Shown: positions 6,665 to 12,101 of the stretch, in pieces | Numbering within the stretch: position 1 is the first letter of the stretch | How the letters are laid out: every line of letters starts with the position of its first letter | From: Gemmatimonadota bacterium | GTDB taxonomy: Bacteria > Gemmatimonadota > Gemmatimonadetes > Gemmatimonadales > Gemmatimonadaceae | NCBI GenBank assembly: GCA_028287235.1 | Contig: JAQBQB010000025.1 | Coordinates: 124,001 to 188,000 of the forward strand | Direction of reading: 5' to 3' | Length of the DNA stretch: 64,000 nt | Translations under genes and position numbers: made by a program | The notes under the pieces: model-generated | Database searches by the model: none | The model's input: the letters and a program-made list of their open reading frames with translations, nothing else | What the model was told of the DNA's origin: nothing

Positions 6665-6710
6665 GCCGGACGTGCGAGCACACCCACACCGACGATCTGG
6701 AGAGACCATC

Positions 6711-7130
6711 ATGCGTTCTCGTTCTGTAGGTTCCGTAGTCGCGGCGTTGTTGACGGCGGCAGGCTGCGCTGCCTCCGGGCCGTCCGGCACCGCGGCCGGA
6801 TCCGCCGGCGGCGCGTCGTCGGCAAGTGTCGCGCATGGCGGTCCCGTGATCACGCAGGACGAGCTCGCCGGCACGTCGGCGCAAACGGCGATGGACGCCA
6901 TCAAGCGCTTGCGTCCGAATTTTCTCACGGGCCGCGGAGCGCCGAGCGCGAATTCGCCCGACGTGGGGATCGTCATTTACGCCAACGGAATGCGCCTCGG
7001 CGGACCATCGGCGCTGAACGACGTCCTGGTGCAGGACATCAAGCAGATCCAGTATCTGAATGCGTCGGAAGCGACTCAGCGCTTCGGCACCGGGCATCCG
7101 AACGGCGCGATCCTCATCACGAGGAAGTGA
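6711..7130 (+). CDS. Small lipoprotein with TonB-plug-like C-terminus
   Basis: 139 residues. It starts at the ATG at 6711 with GGAGAG in front. The signal peptide ends in a lipobox (LLTAAGC, about residues 12-18), followed by a Gly/Ser/Ala-rich linker. The C-terminal 60 residues (about IVIYANGMRLGG to GAILITRK) look like the core of a TonB-dependent receptor plug: a short strand, an IKQIQYL segment, and the closing RFGTGHPNGAILI strand. No barrel follows, so it is an isolated plug-like domain anchored to a membrane. The function is unknown; the plug relation is by pattern only. Confidence 0.75.
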   Translation: MRSRSVGSVVAALLTAAGCAASGPSGTAAGSAGGASSASVAHGGPVITQDELAGTSAQTAMDAIKRLRPNFLTGRGAPSANSPDVGIVIYANGMRLGGPSALNDVLVQDIKQIQYLNASEATQRFGTGHPNGAILITRK

Positions 7131-7152: not shown

Positions 7153-8325
7153 TCAGGTGCCCGTCTTTCGTTTCCTGGCTACGGCCTTCTTTCGCGGCGC
7201 CGCCTTCTTCCCGGTCTGAATGGGCACCACGTCCGACTCGGCGGCAACGGCGTCGCCGCGCTGCGGCACCGCGACCTGACGCGGCTGCTTGTAGACGAAG
7301 CGCTGCCCTTCGTAGTTCCGGAAGATCACTTCGTCTTCGTTGATCTCCTCGACGTACTCCGGGAGCAGGGGCACCTTGCCGCCGCCTCCCGGCGCGTCGA
7401 TCACGAAGTGCGGAACGGCGAGGCCTGACGTCCAGCCGCGCAGCGCCTTGATGATCTCCAGTCCCTTCTCGACCGTGGTGCGGAAGTGCTCACCGCCGGC
7501 GACCTGGTCGGCCATGTAGAGGTAGTACGGCCGCACGCGCGCCTTGAGGAGCTTCTGCATCAGCTCCTTCATGATGAGCGGATCGTCGTTCACGCCGCGC
7601 AGCAGCACCGTCTGGCAGCCGAGGGGAATGCCGGCACTCGCCAACCGCCCGAGCGCGGCGACCGTTTCCTCGGTCAGCTCCGCCGGATGGTTGAAGTGTG
7701 TGTTCATATAGATGGGATGGTACTTTTGCACCATCTCGCAGAACTCGGGCGTGATGCGCGACGGCAGATGCGAGGTGATGCGGCTGCCGAGGCGGATGAT
7801 CTCGACGTGCGGAATCTCCCGGAGCTTTTGGAAGATGTATTCCAGCCGCCGGTCGGAGAGCATCATCGGATCGCCGCCCGAGAGGATGACGTCGCGGATC
7901 TCGGTGTGGTTCCGGATGTAGTCGAACGCCGAGTCGTACTGGTTGAGCGGAATCTTCTCGGGATCGCCGACTTTGCGGCGCCGGGTGCAGAAGCGGCAGT
8001 ACGTCGCGCAGATGGGGCTCACGAGGAACAGCACGCGGTCGGGATAGCGGTGCGTGATGTTGGGCACCGGCGAGTCGCCGTCCTCGTCGAGCGAGTCGAT
8101 GACGCCGTCGACGACGTCGAGCTCGGCCACGGTCGGCACGTACTGCTGCCACATGGCGTCGCCGACTTCCTTGATGGTCGCCAGCACGTTCGGCGTGATG
8201 CGCATCTGGAAGTTGTCGAAGGCGGGCTTCAGGCCTTCGACGTCGATGACCTCTTCGCCGTAGCGCGCTTCGAGCTTGTCGAGGGTGTCGACGCTTGCGT
8301 GCAAGGACTTCTGCCAGTCACTCAT
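7153..8325 (-). CDS. kamA: Lysine 2,3-aminomutase, radical SAM/PLP enzyme
   Basis: 390 residues. The radical SAM cluster motif is CATYCRFC (Cys 106, 110, 113). The PLP lysine lies in PGGGGK (about Lys317). The two aspartates that hold the substrate's side-chain amino group in lysine 2,3-aminomutase are both present (about Asp273 in MADQ and Asp310 in VIDAPGG), which argues for L-lysine rather than glutamate as substrate. The product would be L-beta-lysine. The C-terminus carries an unusual Lys/Arg-rich tail of about 20 residues. It is the last gene of a four-gene operon: its start overlaps the GNAT stop by 8 bp. No epmA or efp is near, so an EF-P modification role is not supported. Confidence 0.93.
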   Translation of the reverse strand: MSDWQKSLHASVDTLDKLEARYGEEVIDVEGLKPAFDNFQMRITPNVLATIKEVGDAMWQQYVPTVAELDVVDGVIDSLDEDGDSPVPNITHRYPDRVLFLVSPICATYCRFCTRRRKVGDPEKIPLNQYDSAFDYIRNHTEIRDVILSGGDPMMLSDRRLEYIFQKLREIPHVEIIRLGSRITSHLPSRITPEFCEMVQKYHPIYMNTHFNHPAELTEETVAALGRLASAGIPLGCQTVLLRGVNDDPLIMKELMQKLLKARVRPYYLYMADQVAGGEHFRTTVEKGLEIIKALRGWTSGLAVPHFVIDAPGGGGKVPLLPEYVEEINEDEVIFRNYEGQRFVYKQPRQVAVPQRGDAVAAESDVVPIQTGKKAAPRKKAVARKRKTGT

Positions 8326-8878
8326 TGCGGGACGACTCCGCGTTCTGTCGGGTGTGGAGGAGCTCGGATGCAGCGAACCGCTTGGTGTAGATCACCCGGG
8401 AATCGCCGGGCGCGTAGTAATCCGCGAGGCTCGCGGCCGGCTCGTAGCCGTGCAGCTCGTAGAAATGCCTCGTGGGCGCATAATCCATACGCGACGACGT
8501 CTCGACGACGAGCAATCGCGCCTCACGCTGGCGAAGACGGCGCTCGACTTCATCGAGCAGTTGCGTGCCGCCGCCTTCGCCCTGAAACTCGGGGTGCATC
8601 GCGATCCAGTAGAGATCGTAGACCCGATCCGTTCCTGGAGTCGCACCGTAACAGACGTATCCGACGAGTTGGCCATCACGCGAGAAGGACCCCACGAACT
8701 CGTAGTTCGCCACGCCGTCGCCCGGATCGTACGGCGCGCGGGCCGGTCCCACAGCAAAGGTCTCGTCGAATAGCTCGAGCGCGACCGCGACTTCCTCATC
8801 CCGGAAGACGGAGGTCGCGTCGAGAATTTCACGGATGCGGGTTCGATGGCCCCGCTGAAGGGCCCCGAGTTTCACCAC
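8318..8878 (-). CDS. GNAT N-acetyltransferase of the kamA operon
   Basis: 186 residues with a GNAT core: YDLYWIAMHPEFQGEGGG is the beta4 strand and acetyl-CoA loop (Q/G-x-G-x-G/A type), followed by the LLDEVERRL helix and a RHFYELHGY-like end. The GTG at 8878 is chosen because AGGAG lies 5-6 bp before it and it follows the upstream stop by 4 bp; a longer ATG start at 8935 would overlap the upstream gene by 53 bp without a ribosome site. In methanogens kamA-type ablA is paired with an acetyltransferase (AblB) that makes N-epsilon-acetyl-beta-lysine, so acetylation of beta-lysine or a derivative is a reasonable guess. The sequence is not clearly AblB. Confidence 0.85.
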   Translation of the reverse strand: MVKLGALQRGHRTRIREILDATSVFRDEEVAVALELFDETFAVGPARAPYDPGDGVANYEFVGSFSRDGQLVGYVCYGATPGTDRVYDLYWIAMHPEFQGEGGGTQLLDEVERRLRQREARLLVVETSSRMDYAPTRHFYELHGYEPAASLADYYAPGDSRVIYTKRFAASELLHTRQNAESSRNE

Positions 8879-8882
8879 GCTC

Positions 8883-9944
8883 TCACTCCTGGCCAACGGC
8901 GAAAAGATCGAGCTCCCCATCGGCCGGCGTTGCACCGGACAGCTGTTGCGCGAGGATCCACTCGTCCGCAGCCGGCACGACCCGGGCCCGCGCGAGCGCC
9001 ATCTCGCAAATATTTCTAATCAACGCCGGATATTCGTCGCCGGCCACGCGCGCCATGCGCGCGAGCCCGGCATCGGGCGAAATATCCGGATTCGCGTTCA
9101 CCTCGAGAATCCACGGCTGGCCGTTCACGTCGATGCGCATGTCCACGCGCCCATAGCCGAATCCGCCCGACAACTTCCAGGCGCGAAGCGCGACGCGACG
9201 AACTTCGTTCGCAATCTTGGCCGGCAACCGTGCGGGACAGCGGGGCTGCGCGCCGACATCGTCGACGCTCCCGGTGGCCCACTTCGACTGATAGGTGATG
9301 ATGCGCCAGCGGCCGCGCGGCATCTTGCTGAAGTCGATCTCCGAGATCGGCAGCACCGTGTCGCCCAGAATGCCGACATTTACCTCGCGGCCTTCGACGT
9401 ACCGCTGGACGAGCACCTCGTCCCACAGCTCGAGCATCGCGCTCACACGCTCGGCGAGCTGGCGCGTGTTGCGCACCACCGAGCGCTGCTCCACGCCGAG
9501 CGACGCGTCTTCAGCGGCCGGCTTCACGATCGCCGGGAAGCCGACGCTCACCAGCGGATCGCCGCGACGAATGGCCGCGAACCGCGGGATTGGAAGCCCG
9601 GCCTTCTCCAGCAGTCCGTTCACGACGTGCTTTCGCAGGCAAACGGCGGTGGTGTAGCTCGACGCGCCCGTAAAGGGAATCTTGAACAGCTCGAGCACCG
9701 AGATGACCGCCGACTCCAGCGCCGCGATACCGTCGATTCCCTCGCACATGTTGAACGCGAGATCGAATTTTCCCCGGCGAAGCTTCTCGATCCACTTACC
9801 GTCCTGATGCACCGGGATGTAGCCGACCTCGTTCCCCTCGGACACGAGCGATTTCTCGATCGCCTCGACGGTGCCGAGGATGAGCTGGTCGGGTGTCGCT
9901 CCCGCGTAGGCGGATGCACCGTCGAACAGAATGGCGACTTTCAA
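8883..9944 (-). CDS. ATP-grasp ligase, D-Ala-D-Ala ligase-like (second copy)
   Basis: 353 residues with an ATP-grasp fold: N-terminal Rossmann-like part (KVAILFDGASAYAG), the lysine-containing AIVKPAAEDASLGV nucleotide loop, and the metal-binding C-terminal signature WILEVNANPDISPD. It resembles D-Ala-D-Ala ligase, but the usual EVNTLPG end is replaced by EVNANPD, so its substrate probably differs. It starts at a TTG at 9944 whose last two bases overlap the upstream TGA (TTGA), with GGAG eight bases before it, so translation is coupled to the gene before. The operon context suggests it joins amino acids or beta-lysine in a peptide or amide bond. Confidence 0.88.
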   Translation of the reverse strand: MKVAILFDGASAYAGATPDQLILGTVEAIEKSLVSEGNEVGYIPVHQDGKWIEKLRRGKFDLAFNMCEGIDGIAALESAVISVLELFKIPFTGASSYTTAVCLRKHVVNGLLEKAGLPIPRFAAIRRGDPLVSVGFPAIVKPAAEDASLGVEQRSVVRNTRQLAERVSAMLELWDEVLVQRYVEGREVNVGILGDTVLPISEIDFSKMPRGRWRIITYQSKWATGSVDDVGAQPRCPARLPAKIANEVRRVALRAWKLSGGFGYGRVDMRIDVNGQPWILEVNANPDISPDAGLARMARVAGDEYPALIRNICEMALARARVVPAADEWILAQQLSGATPADGELDLFAVGQE

Positions 9945-11083
9945 GCGACGGACTCCGCGAGAGAGGAGTAGCGGGAGCTGAGCGGGGCGTCGAGGTCGAG
10001 GAAGTAACGCTCGGCGGCATGCACGAGGGCGCTCTGGATGAGCTGATCGTAGCTCAGCCCCGCGGCGCGAGCCGCCTTGGGCAGGCAGGAGTTGTCTTCG
10101 AAACTGGGCAGGATGCCGGGCAGCGGATTGACCTCGACGATGTTCGGCACGCCGTCGGCGTCGAGGCGGACGTCGATGCGCGACCAGTCCCGGCAGCCGA
10201 GGGTGTGATAGGCGCGCAGGACCACCGCTTCGATCGACGACTGCAGCCAGGGGTCGATCCGCGCCGGACATTCGAAGATGTCGAGCGGCTCGCTGGGCGT
10301 GTCCCAGATCCACTTCGCTTCGAACCCATAGATCGGAAGGGCTCCGTGAGGGAGCGAGCCGAAATTAATTCCCACGAGCGGAAGCACGCGCGCCCGGCTG
10401 CCGTTGCCGAGGACGCCGCAGGTGAATTCTGCACCGGGCAGGAACGCCTCGGCGATCACCGGCTGGTCGTACGTCTCGAGAAGAAAGCGGACCTGTGCCT
10501 CCAGCTCGTCGCGGGAGCGAACGAGATTTTTCTCGGTGATCCCCTTGGACGATCCCTCTTGGACCGGCTTGAGGAAGATCGGCGCCAGAGGAGACAGACG
10601 CGCGACGAGCGGCGAGTTGCCATGAAGCAACGCGTCTAATGACGCCGCGGAATCGATCAACGCGAAGCTGGCGTTCGGAATTCCGTAGGCGCTCAGGACG
10701 TCTTTCGTCCGGCCTTTGTGGAGGCACAGCGAGAGCGTGTACGGGTCGCTGCCCGAGTAGGGAACGCCGAAAAATTCGCAGATCGCCGGCACGTGGGCCT
10801 CGCGATTCGCGCCATGAAGACCTTCGGCGATGTTGAAGACGATGTCGGGGCGTTCGGCCCGCAGGCGCTCGGGGAACTCTTCGGTGGCCTCGAGGCGGAC
10901 AACCTCGCCATAGGCGGAAAGCGCGGAGGCGACGGCGTCGATCGTTTCGGCGGAGTCCCACTCCGCGTAAACGTCGCTCGTACTAGGAGGCTCCTCATCG
11001 GGGCGCGGCTCCGTTGCCGCCGCGCTGACCAGCCCCACCGGTGAATCAGGTTTTTGGTTGTACGCGAACCCGATGCGCGTCAT
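9941..11083 (-). CDS. ATP-grasp ligase, D-Ala-D-Ala ligase-like (first copy)
   Basis: 380 residues, with an N-terminal MTRIGFAYNQK strand, an internal FNIAEG / GVPYSGSDPYTLSLCLHK block typical of Ddl-like enzymes, the ATP loop FLKPVQEGSSKGI, and the Mg-binding end NIVEVNPLPGILP, which is close to the classic EVNxxPG. It is the first gene of the four-gene operon (ATP-grasp, ATP-grasp, GNAT, kamA). The two ligases differ clearly from each other, so they probably catalyse different steps. A role in cell-wall D-Ala-D-Ala synthesis is unlikely in this setting but cannot be excluded from sequence. Confidence 0.88.
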   Translation of the reverse strand: MTRIGFAYNQKPDSPVGLVSAAATEPRPDEEPPSTSDVYAEWDSAETIDAVASALSAYGEVVRLEATEEFPERLRAERPDIVFNIAEGLHGANREAHVPAICEFFGVPYSGSDPYTLSLCLHKGRTKDVLSAYGIPNASFALIDSAASLDALLHGNSPLVARLSPLAPIFLKPVQEGSSKGITEKNLVRSRDELEAQVRFLLETYDQPVIAEAFLPGAEFTCGVLGNGSRARVLPLVGINFGSLPHGALPIYGFEAKWIWDTPSEPLDIFECPARIDPWLQSSIEAVVLRAYHTLGCRDWSRIDVRLDADGVPNIVEVNPLPGILPSFEDNSCLPKAARAAGLSYDQLIQSALVHAAERYFLDLDAPLSSRYSSLAESVA

Positions 11084-11251
11084 CCCGTCTCTGTTGGTCG
11101 TCCGCGGCGACTGTGCCGCCAGAATCTCGAGCGGTGAGCGGTGCGTGAAGTACGCTACTCAGCGACGCGAGGGCGCAAGACAAATGCCATGTATGGTCGG
11201 AGCGCAAAATACGGGACGCGATTTTTTCGCGCAATGATTTTTTTACGATGT

Positions 11252-11333
11252 GATCCTGAGGAGCGACGCGATGAAGGATCGCCGTCGTTCATCGCGATCC
11301 TCTTTCATCGCGATCCTTCGCGTCGCTCAGGAT
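11252..11333. repeat. Imperfect inverted repeat (ATCCTGAG...AAGGATCGC family)
   Basis: The left arm (11252-11282) and right arm (11310-11333) pair over about 24 bp around the words ATCCTGAG, CGACGCGA and AAGGATCGC, with a few extra bases in the left arm. The middle contains TCATCGCGATCCT twice. It lies between the divergent start of the ATP-grasp operon and the end of thyX. Repeats with the words TCATCCTGAGCG and AAGGATC recur in many soil-bacterial genomes, so this is probably a dispersed REP-like element that may also end thyX transcription. Confidence 0.7.
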
Positions 11334-11339
11334 GACAGG

Positions 11340-12101
11340 TCACACCTTGTGGTAAGAAATCCTCGCCGCCTCTCGCCGATCTTCTCCCACGTAGATCTCG
11401 AAATCGGAGAAGAATCCCGGCGCCTCACGCTGGAGCAGCCGGAGCACCGCCACCGCCATGCGGCGGATCTCGAGCTCGGCGCCCTCACTGCTGCGGAGCT
11501 CGAGCATCGTGCGCCAGGCGCGCGCGTTCGCCGTGACCACGATCTTCGTCTCGGTGGCATTGGGCAGAACGGCGCGCGCCGCCTCGCGCGCCATCTTCCG
11601 GCGATGAACCTTGTCCGCAACCCAGCCATACCGCTCCATCAATTGGGCAACGAGGCCGACGTAGACGGCCTGCGCCTGCTCCACCTGTGTGCGCCACGTC
11701 GTCTCGAGCGCGTCGTCGCCGATCACCGCCGGCGGGATCACGAAGTTCGCCTCGGACTCGTCCACGTAGCGCTGCGAGAGCTGCGAATAGGCGAATCCGG
11801 CGCGATGCCGCACCAGCTCGTGCGTGAGCGAGCGGCTCACTCCCTCGAGGAGAATCGAGTAGTTGGCGTGCTCCAGGACGCTGCCGTGCCCCTGCTTCTT
11901 GATGTTCTCGAGGTATTCACGCGTCTCGCGCTTTGCCGGATTGTGCTGGCTCATGTAACAGAGCCGGCCGGCAAATTCCGCCAGGCGCTCTCCGTCGGTG
12001 CTCTCGCCAATCCAGCTCACCGGCAGATGCTCGGGCGCGGTGAAGCTCGGGCGGGAGAGGAGGGTGAAAACTGGCTCGGTGTAATAGCGTGGCGTCGGCA
12101 T
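11340..12101 (-). CDS. thyX: Flavin-dependent thymidylate synthase ThyX
   Basis: 253 residues. ThyX converts dUMP to dTMP using FAD, NADPH and methylene-tetrahydrofolate. The ThyX signature is present as RHRAGFAYSQLSQRY (about 98-112), one residue longer between RHR and the final serine than the textbook RHR-X7-S form. The preceding QGHGSVLEHANYSI block is the other hallmark of the family. Length is usual. The gene is preceded by heptamer repeats at 12114-12134 and followed by a dispersed inverted repeat. Confidence 0.95.
   Translation of the reverse strand: MPTPRYYTEPVFTLLSRPSFTAPEHLPVSWIGESTDGERLAEFAGRLCYMSQHNPAKRETREYLENIKKQGHGSVLEHANYSILLEGVSRSLTHELVRHRAGFAYSQLSQRYVDESEANFVIPPAVIGDDALETTWRTQVEQAQAVYVGLVAQLMERYGWVADKVHRRKMAREAARAVLPNATETKIVVTANARAWRTMLELRSSEGAELEIRRMAVAVLRLLQREAPGFFSDFEIYVGEDRREAARISYHKV

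Follow-up and report, generated by a model that had tools for sequence, protein, structure and literature searches.

The window, a stretch of 64,000 nucleotides on contig G000:C30 of a 5.7 Mb Gemmatimonadota genome, contains a run of four genes on the minus strand, transcribed in the order ATPg1 (11083-9941), ATPg2 (9944-8883), GNAT (8878-8318) and KamA (8325-7153). A Pfam search of the four proteins yielded two Dala_Dala_lig_C domains, a GNAT domain, and a radical SAM domain together with LAM_C: ATPg1 (380 aa; PF07478, E 7e-34), the first gene of the operon, codes for an ATP-grasp ligase of the D-Ala-D-Ala-ligase fold, ATPg2 (353 aa; PF07478, E 3e-29) for a second, distinct ATP-grasp ligase, GNAT (186 aa; PF00583) for an acetyltransferase and KamA (390 aa) for a radical SAM enzyme of the lysine 2,3-aminomutase type. 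ATPg1 starts with ATG at 11083 and stops with TGA at 9943-9941; ATPg2 starts with TTG at 9944 and stops with TGA at 8885-8883, and the sequence TTGA (9944-9941) is common to the end of the former and the start of the latter, a 4-base overlap. GNAT starts with GTG at 8878, after a gap of 4 bases, and its stop codon ends at 8318; KamA starts with ATG at 8325, overlapping GNAT by 8 bases, and its stop codon ends at 7153. A GGAG sequence is found upstream from the ATPg2, GNAT and KamA starts. An earlier note on this DNA had described this layout, which proved correct to the base, and had named the two ligases, the GNAT and KamA, identities that are backed by the Pfam and NCBIfam matches.

A same-strand gene read as ThyX (11340-12101) ends 256 bases upstream from ATPg1, and a plus-strand frame (6672-7130) converges on KamA from the downstream side; the four genes thus form a unit of their own. 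Promoter and terminator scans gave nothing above chance. A long inverted repeat with CATCCTGAGCGACGCGAAGGATC lies upstream from ATPg1 (11240-11340); it occurs as a single copy in the window and looks like a dispersed repeat.

The window KamA was aligned over residues 2-350 with the solved lysine 2,3-aminomutase of Clostridium, 2a5h (phmmer E 1.5e-116). It retains the CxxxCxxC motif, Asp293, Asp330 and Lys337 (2a5h numbering), which bears out the claim that both lysine-specific aspartates and the PLP lysine are kept. The three cysteines and the two aspartates were present in 103 of 103 aligned KamA sequences, and Lys337 in 102 of 103. In the Clostridium enzyme these aspartates hold the epsilon-amino group of lysine, and Lys337 is the PLP lysine; the strict conservation of the lysine-binding aspartates makes beta-lysine the likely product of KamA. 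The protein scored above the cut-off of TIGR00238 and below those of the EpmB model TIGR03821 (219.5 vs 369.3) and of the glutamate and arginine aminomutase models. It has no N-terminal tail; at the other end, a tail rich in Lys, Arg and Ala (KKAAPRKKAVARKRKTGT, 7153-7210) takes the place of the end of the LAM C-terminal domain.

KamA together with an acetyltransferase is the composition of the AblA/AblB pathway of methanogens and some bacteria, in which a lysine 2,3-aminomutase adjoins a GNAT and N-epsilon-acetyl-beta-lysine is made. The operon might be a variant of this osmolyte pathway, with the ligases as an accessory extension or as unrelated passengers, and KamA does score well with the AblA model TIGR03820 (442.6 bits). 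This score is nevertheless below the cut-off of 525.4, as is that of the KamA of another locus, L101 (499.1), and the AblB NCBIfam model gave no match to the window GNAT up to E 1, nor to two of its relatives up to E 0.01. We consider such a variant rather unlikely, also in view of the distribution of the genes (see below). The closest solved relative of the window GNAT is 2r7h (E 3e-27), and Desulfobacterota have relatives of 2r7h within this gene set; it is labelled 'putative D-alanine N-acetyltransferase', a function label given as putative only.

The ligases share with Ddl the fold and the ATP and metal site. The AlphaFold model of ATPg1 (pLDDT 82) gave as best PDB match the DdlB structure 8evz (Z 31.5, 296 residues, 2.5 A) and that of ATPg2 (pLDDT 85) the DdlB structure 8evy (Z 34.1, 290 residues, 2.2 A); in sequence alignments the Lys, the Glu/Asn of the ExN motif and the Asp that serve ATP and metal binding are conserved in both. 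The mutual identity of the two proteins is about 32%, in agreement with the earlier description of two distinct D-Ala-D-Ala-ligase-like enzymes. They differ from Ddl in their low family scores, in their substrate-site residues and in their operon context, and ATPg1 also in a loop insertion with the motif DEEPPS. Against the Ddl model TIGR01205 (cut-off 245.65) ATPg1 scored 135.8 bits and ATPg2 127.8 bits, while a canonical Ddl encoded elsewhere in the same genome scored 322 bits. Residues of the Ddl substrate site (Tyr216, Ser281 and Leu282 of E. coli DdlB) were compared by alignment, in which single loop positions are uncertain: ATPg1 keeps only the serine, which belongs to the acceptor-carboxylate site, and ATPg2 has Trp, Ala and Gly at the three positions. 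ATPg1 carries a conserved AE(W/F)D motif near the position of the Ddl Ser-Glu-Arg motif, and ATPg2, instead of the three lost residues, a conserved N-x-N-P/A-x-x-S-P-D-A-G-like stretch. The unlike acceptor sites and the limited mutual identity suggest that the two ligases use different substrates.

A role of the ligases in the cell wall, as enzymes making D-Ala-D-Ala, a depsipeptide variant or a beta-lysine cross-bridge, would be in line with the Ddl fold (Z >30 for both models) and with the label of the solved GNAT relative. We hold it to be highly improbable: both proteins lie far below the Ddl cut-off in a genome that has its own Ddl, Tyr216 is replaced in both and Ser281 and Leu282 in ATPg2, and no cell-wall gene was conserved next to the operon in the surveyed neighbourhoods. 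The earlier note had proposed ordinary D-Ala-D-Ala activity as a test; by sequence, the ligases are unlike an ordinary Ddl. Outside the operon, at G000:C17:6011-6907 (L138), the genome encodes one more Ddl-like ligase, which is about 35% like ATPg1 and also scores below the Ddl cut-off.

The conservation of the gene set, which the same note had named as a check, was borne out in a sample of 200 genomes of the phylum searched for close KamA and close ATPg1. KamA was found in 56 genomes, ATPg1 in 65 and both in 55; ATPg1 therefore occurs in 55 of the 56 genomes with KamA as against 10 of the 144 without it (Fisher 1e-37, uncorrected for phylogeny, a value that overstates independence because the sampled genomes are related). 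In 53 of the 55 genomes the two genes lie on one contig, less than 2 kb apart (1.1-1.9 kb); in the other two (G076 and G049) they lie on separate contigs, which is consistent with assembly breaks. Families f4, f5 and f9 have flanking genes different from those of f1 and f2, yet the four genes stay together, and this constancy amid changing flanks is better evidence of co-conservation than the Fisher figure. The order ATPg1, ATPg2, GNAT, KamA was kept throughout the loci of the phylum. In some of them (L012, L014-L016, L022) no GNAT lies between ATPg2 and KamA, and in L051 ATPg2 and GNAT form a single open frame. No plasmid record searched for ATPg1 at E 1e-40 carried it.

In four genomes (G041, G088, G106 and G133) the operon consists of ATPg1-ATPg2-GNAT and a divergent KamA is found elsewhere. 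This arrangement, which is known from two genera, fits a supply of beta-lysine in trans. The divergent KamA of G088 lies near two genes read as CoA-transferase subunits (L145 14258-18201) and may be a lysine-degradation enzyme providing the beta-lysine. Ligases were present and no KamA was found by the genome search in G102, G125 and G179, in the last of which a contig end truncates the locus. The absence of KamA from G184 is a search artefact, since the frame that follows GNAT starts like KamA and is then masked with N. Ligases that are conserved at least as tightly as the GNAT, and that occur with KamA but without the GNAT between them in some genomes and with the GNAT but without an adjacent KamA in others, also speak against a variant of the Abl pathway.

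Outside the phylum, a search of named genomes with the GNAT family yielded 80 loci. All four genes occur on one strand in 48 of them, in the order KamA-ATPg1-ATPg2-GNAT, unlike the window; L119 has the gene order of the window, L129 a third one, and many of the remaining loci are cut by contig ends. The set is present in Desulfobacterota, Planctomycetota, Proteobacteria, Acidobacteriota, Bacteroidota, Spirochaetota and others; carriers include Halodesulfovibrio, Desulfosarcina cetonica, Desulfatitalea alkaliphila, Oceanicella actignis, Filomicrobium and Dasania and, by name, metagenome-assembled genomes of Planctomycetota, Acidobacteriota, Aminicenantes, Krumholzibacteriia, Bacteroidetes, Fibrobacter, Spirochaetales and Victivallis. 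Among cultured carriers, Desulfatitalea alkaliphila, Oceanicella actignis, Dasania sp. GY-MA-18 and Desulfosarcina cetonica have the complete set of four. The habitats of the matches are mixed. In Halodesulfovibrio both ligases scored best as ATPg1. Recurrence of the four genes across the phylum and in other phyla indicates that the operon is more than a chance arrangement. The GNAT was alone in 13 of the 80 loci, so its family may also exist outside the gene set.

An extra protein, whose gene usually separates ATPg2 from GNAT, was encoded in 29 loci (e.g. L101 4183-6432; L092 4162-6432); it combines a GNAT-like domain at the N-terminus with one of the histone-deacetylase type (PF00850, about 240-264 bits). 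This protein is fused to the cluster GNAT (GNAT-HDAC-GNAT) in 10 loci, and ATPg2 is fused to GNAT in 11 others. Deacetylase genes found elsewhere in the genome of the window were considered as missing parts and rejected, being 27-31% like the cluster type. A CxxCxxCC protein (PF03692), possibly metal-related, adjoins KamA or ATPg1 in 10 loci (e.g. L072 3323-3904). No other neighbour recurs beyond a C39-like cysteine peptidase, which lies directly downstream from GNAT in two loci (L064 6497-7216; L134 6585-7394).

Since ATP-grasp ligases and beta-lysine are both known from antibiotic pathways, the product could be a secreted bioactive compound, that is, an antibiotic, a siderophore or a signal. 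We regard this as very unlikely: no transporter, exporter, receptor, regulator, NRPS, PKS or resistance gene was conserved in the surveyed neighbourhoods, and the stable chromosomal neighbours within families and the many carrier species resemble those of a core metabolic trait. An intracellular metabolite is favoured by the absence of export genes, by a chromosomal position that is steady within families and by the wide, free-living distribution of the set.

In the other phyla KamA carries a long tail at its N-terminus, in which almost nothing is conserved except (D/E)EPP(S/T/G/D), sometimes present twice (loci L055-L134 and L163-L190). The discovery set had EPP[STGD] in 41 of 50 KamA frames, whereas the neighbouring frames, 152,178 residues in all, contained it 5 times. 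A first test set, KamA from other genomes of the Desulfosarcina class, gave the strict motif in 23 of 28 proteins, the other five showing a close variant by eye (DDKPPD, DDPPDA, DEPPEP), and in none of 20 KamA paralogues of that class which do not adjoin ligases. In a second class, to which the Phycisphaerales genome belongs, the motif was present in 12 of the 14 KamA that have a ligase next to them and a tail that could be read, and in 2 of the 14 for which the stretch read showed no neighbouring ligase. Taken over the discovery and first test sets it occurs in 66 of 77 tails; 500 shuffles gave 1.5 on average and 6 at most.

Within the phylum of the window, where KamA has no such tail, the motif is found in ATPg1: DEEPPS (residues 29-34; 10982-10999, minus strand) lies in a disordered loop that joins the first strand to the first helix, and the model has pLDDT <50 at residues 15-36. 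It was present in ATPg1 of most family f1 loci read and largely lost in f2; L119, which shares the gene order of the window, also carries it in ATPg1. That the same motif occurs on two unlike proteins suggests that a third component, present in both arrangements, has a binding site for it. Whether on KamA or on ATPg1, the motif probably serves to dock the enzyme to such a common partner, the simplest candidates being ATPg2 and the GNAT.

Alternatively, the ligases could modify a protein with beta-lysine or with a peptide of beta-lysine, as EpmA and EpmB modify EF-P and LysX loads LysW, and the acidic-Pro-Pro motif itself might be the acceptor. The conservation of the motif in otherwise unconserved disordered tails, and its presence on different proteins in different lineages, would be compatible with this. 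Such motifs serve more commonly in docking, however; the residue that precedes the two prolines, normally Glu, is occasionally Asp or Lys or is missing; the ligases are similar to amino-acid ligases; and part of the phylum of the window has no motif in any of the four proteins. We give protein modification a very low probability; a covalent acceptor role of the motif is possible, although less likely than docking.

We consider it probable that the operon codes for a single cytosolic pathway to an intracellular, acetylated peptide or amide containing beta-lysine, most likely a di- or tripeptide. KamA, judging by its lysine-binding residues, would convert L-lysine to beta-lysine; we infer that ATPg1 and ATPg2 then each activate a carboxylate as acyl phosphate and form one of two successive amide bonds involving beta-lysine. 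The GNAT would acetylate one amine of the substrate or of the product. In the phyla that have it, the GNAT-plus-deacetylase protein could remove an acetyl group, so that in these phyla acetylation may be a reversible step or a means of protecting an amine. The product would be kept inside the cell, most plausibly as a compatible solute or a nitrogen reserve. The solute role is a guess from analogy, since no salt-linked or stress-linked gene was conserved near the operon, and we hold it to be far less likely than the intracellular product as such. That the pathway stands for a multi-phylum class of beta-lysine peptide metabolites, made by an enzyme assembly which a mobile (D/E)EPP(S/G/D) motif holds together, on KamA in most phyla and on the first ligase here, is put forward tentatively.

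The pathway outlined above differs from each of the systems it resembles. Compared with AblA/AblB, two ATP-grasp ligases are added, KamA and the GNAT fall outside the respective models, and a deacetylase-like gene is gained in many phyla. The osmolyte N-acetylglutaminylglutamine amide (NAGGN), an acetylated dipeptide solute, is also made by GNAT and ATP-grasp chemistry; its pathway has no KamA, whereas in the operon the Ddl-like ligases are two separate proteins and no amidotransferase gene was seen to be conserved. In the beta-lysylation of EF-P a KamA-family enzyme likewise supplies beta-lysine for an amide bond, but the window KamA is well below the EpmB cut-off and the ligases are of the ATP-grasp type, not synthetase-like. 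A possible link to salt adaptation in Desulfovibrio vulgaris was rejected, being absent from the paper on that subject. We know of no named pathway with this gene set, and a literature search, mostly of open papers, returned none that describes it or relevantly combines an aminomutase with ATP-grasp enzymes; aminomutases do not figure in a paper of 2010 on non-ribosomal peptide ligation.

The ligases can readily be taken for D-Ala-D-Ala ligase, an error that misleads the annotation of cell-wall genes and vancomycin targets. The gene set is present in many phyla, cultured species included. Identification of its product would yield a new beta-amino-acid metabolite, and the motif, being conserved, offers a concrete way into the organisation of the enzymes.
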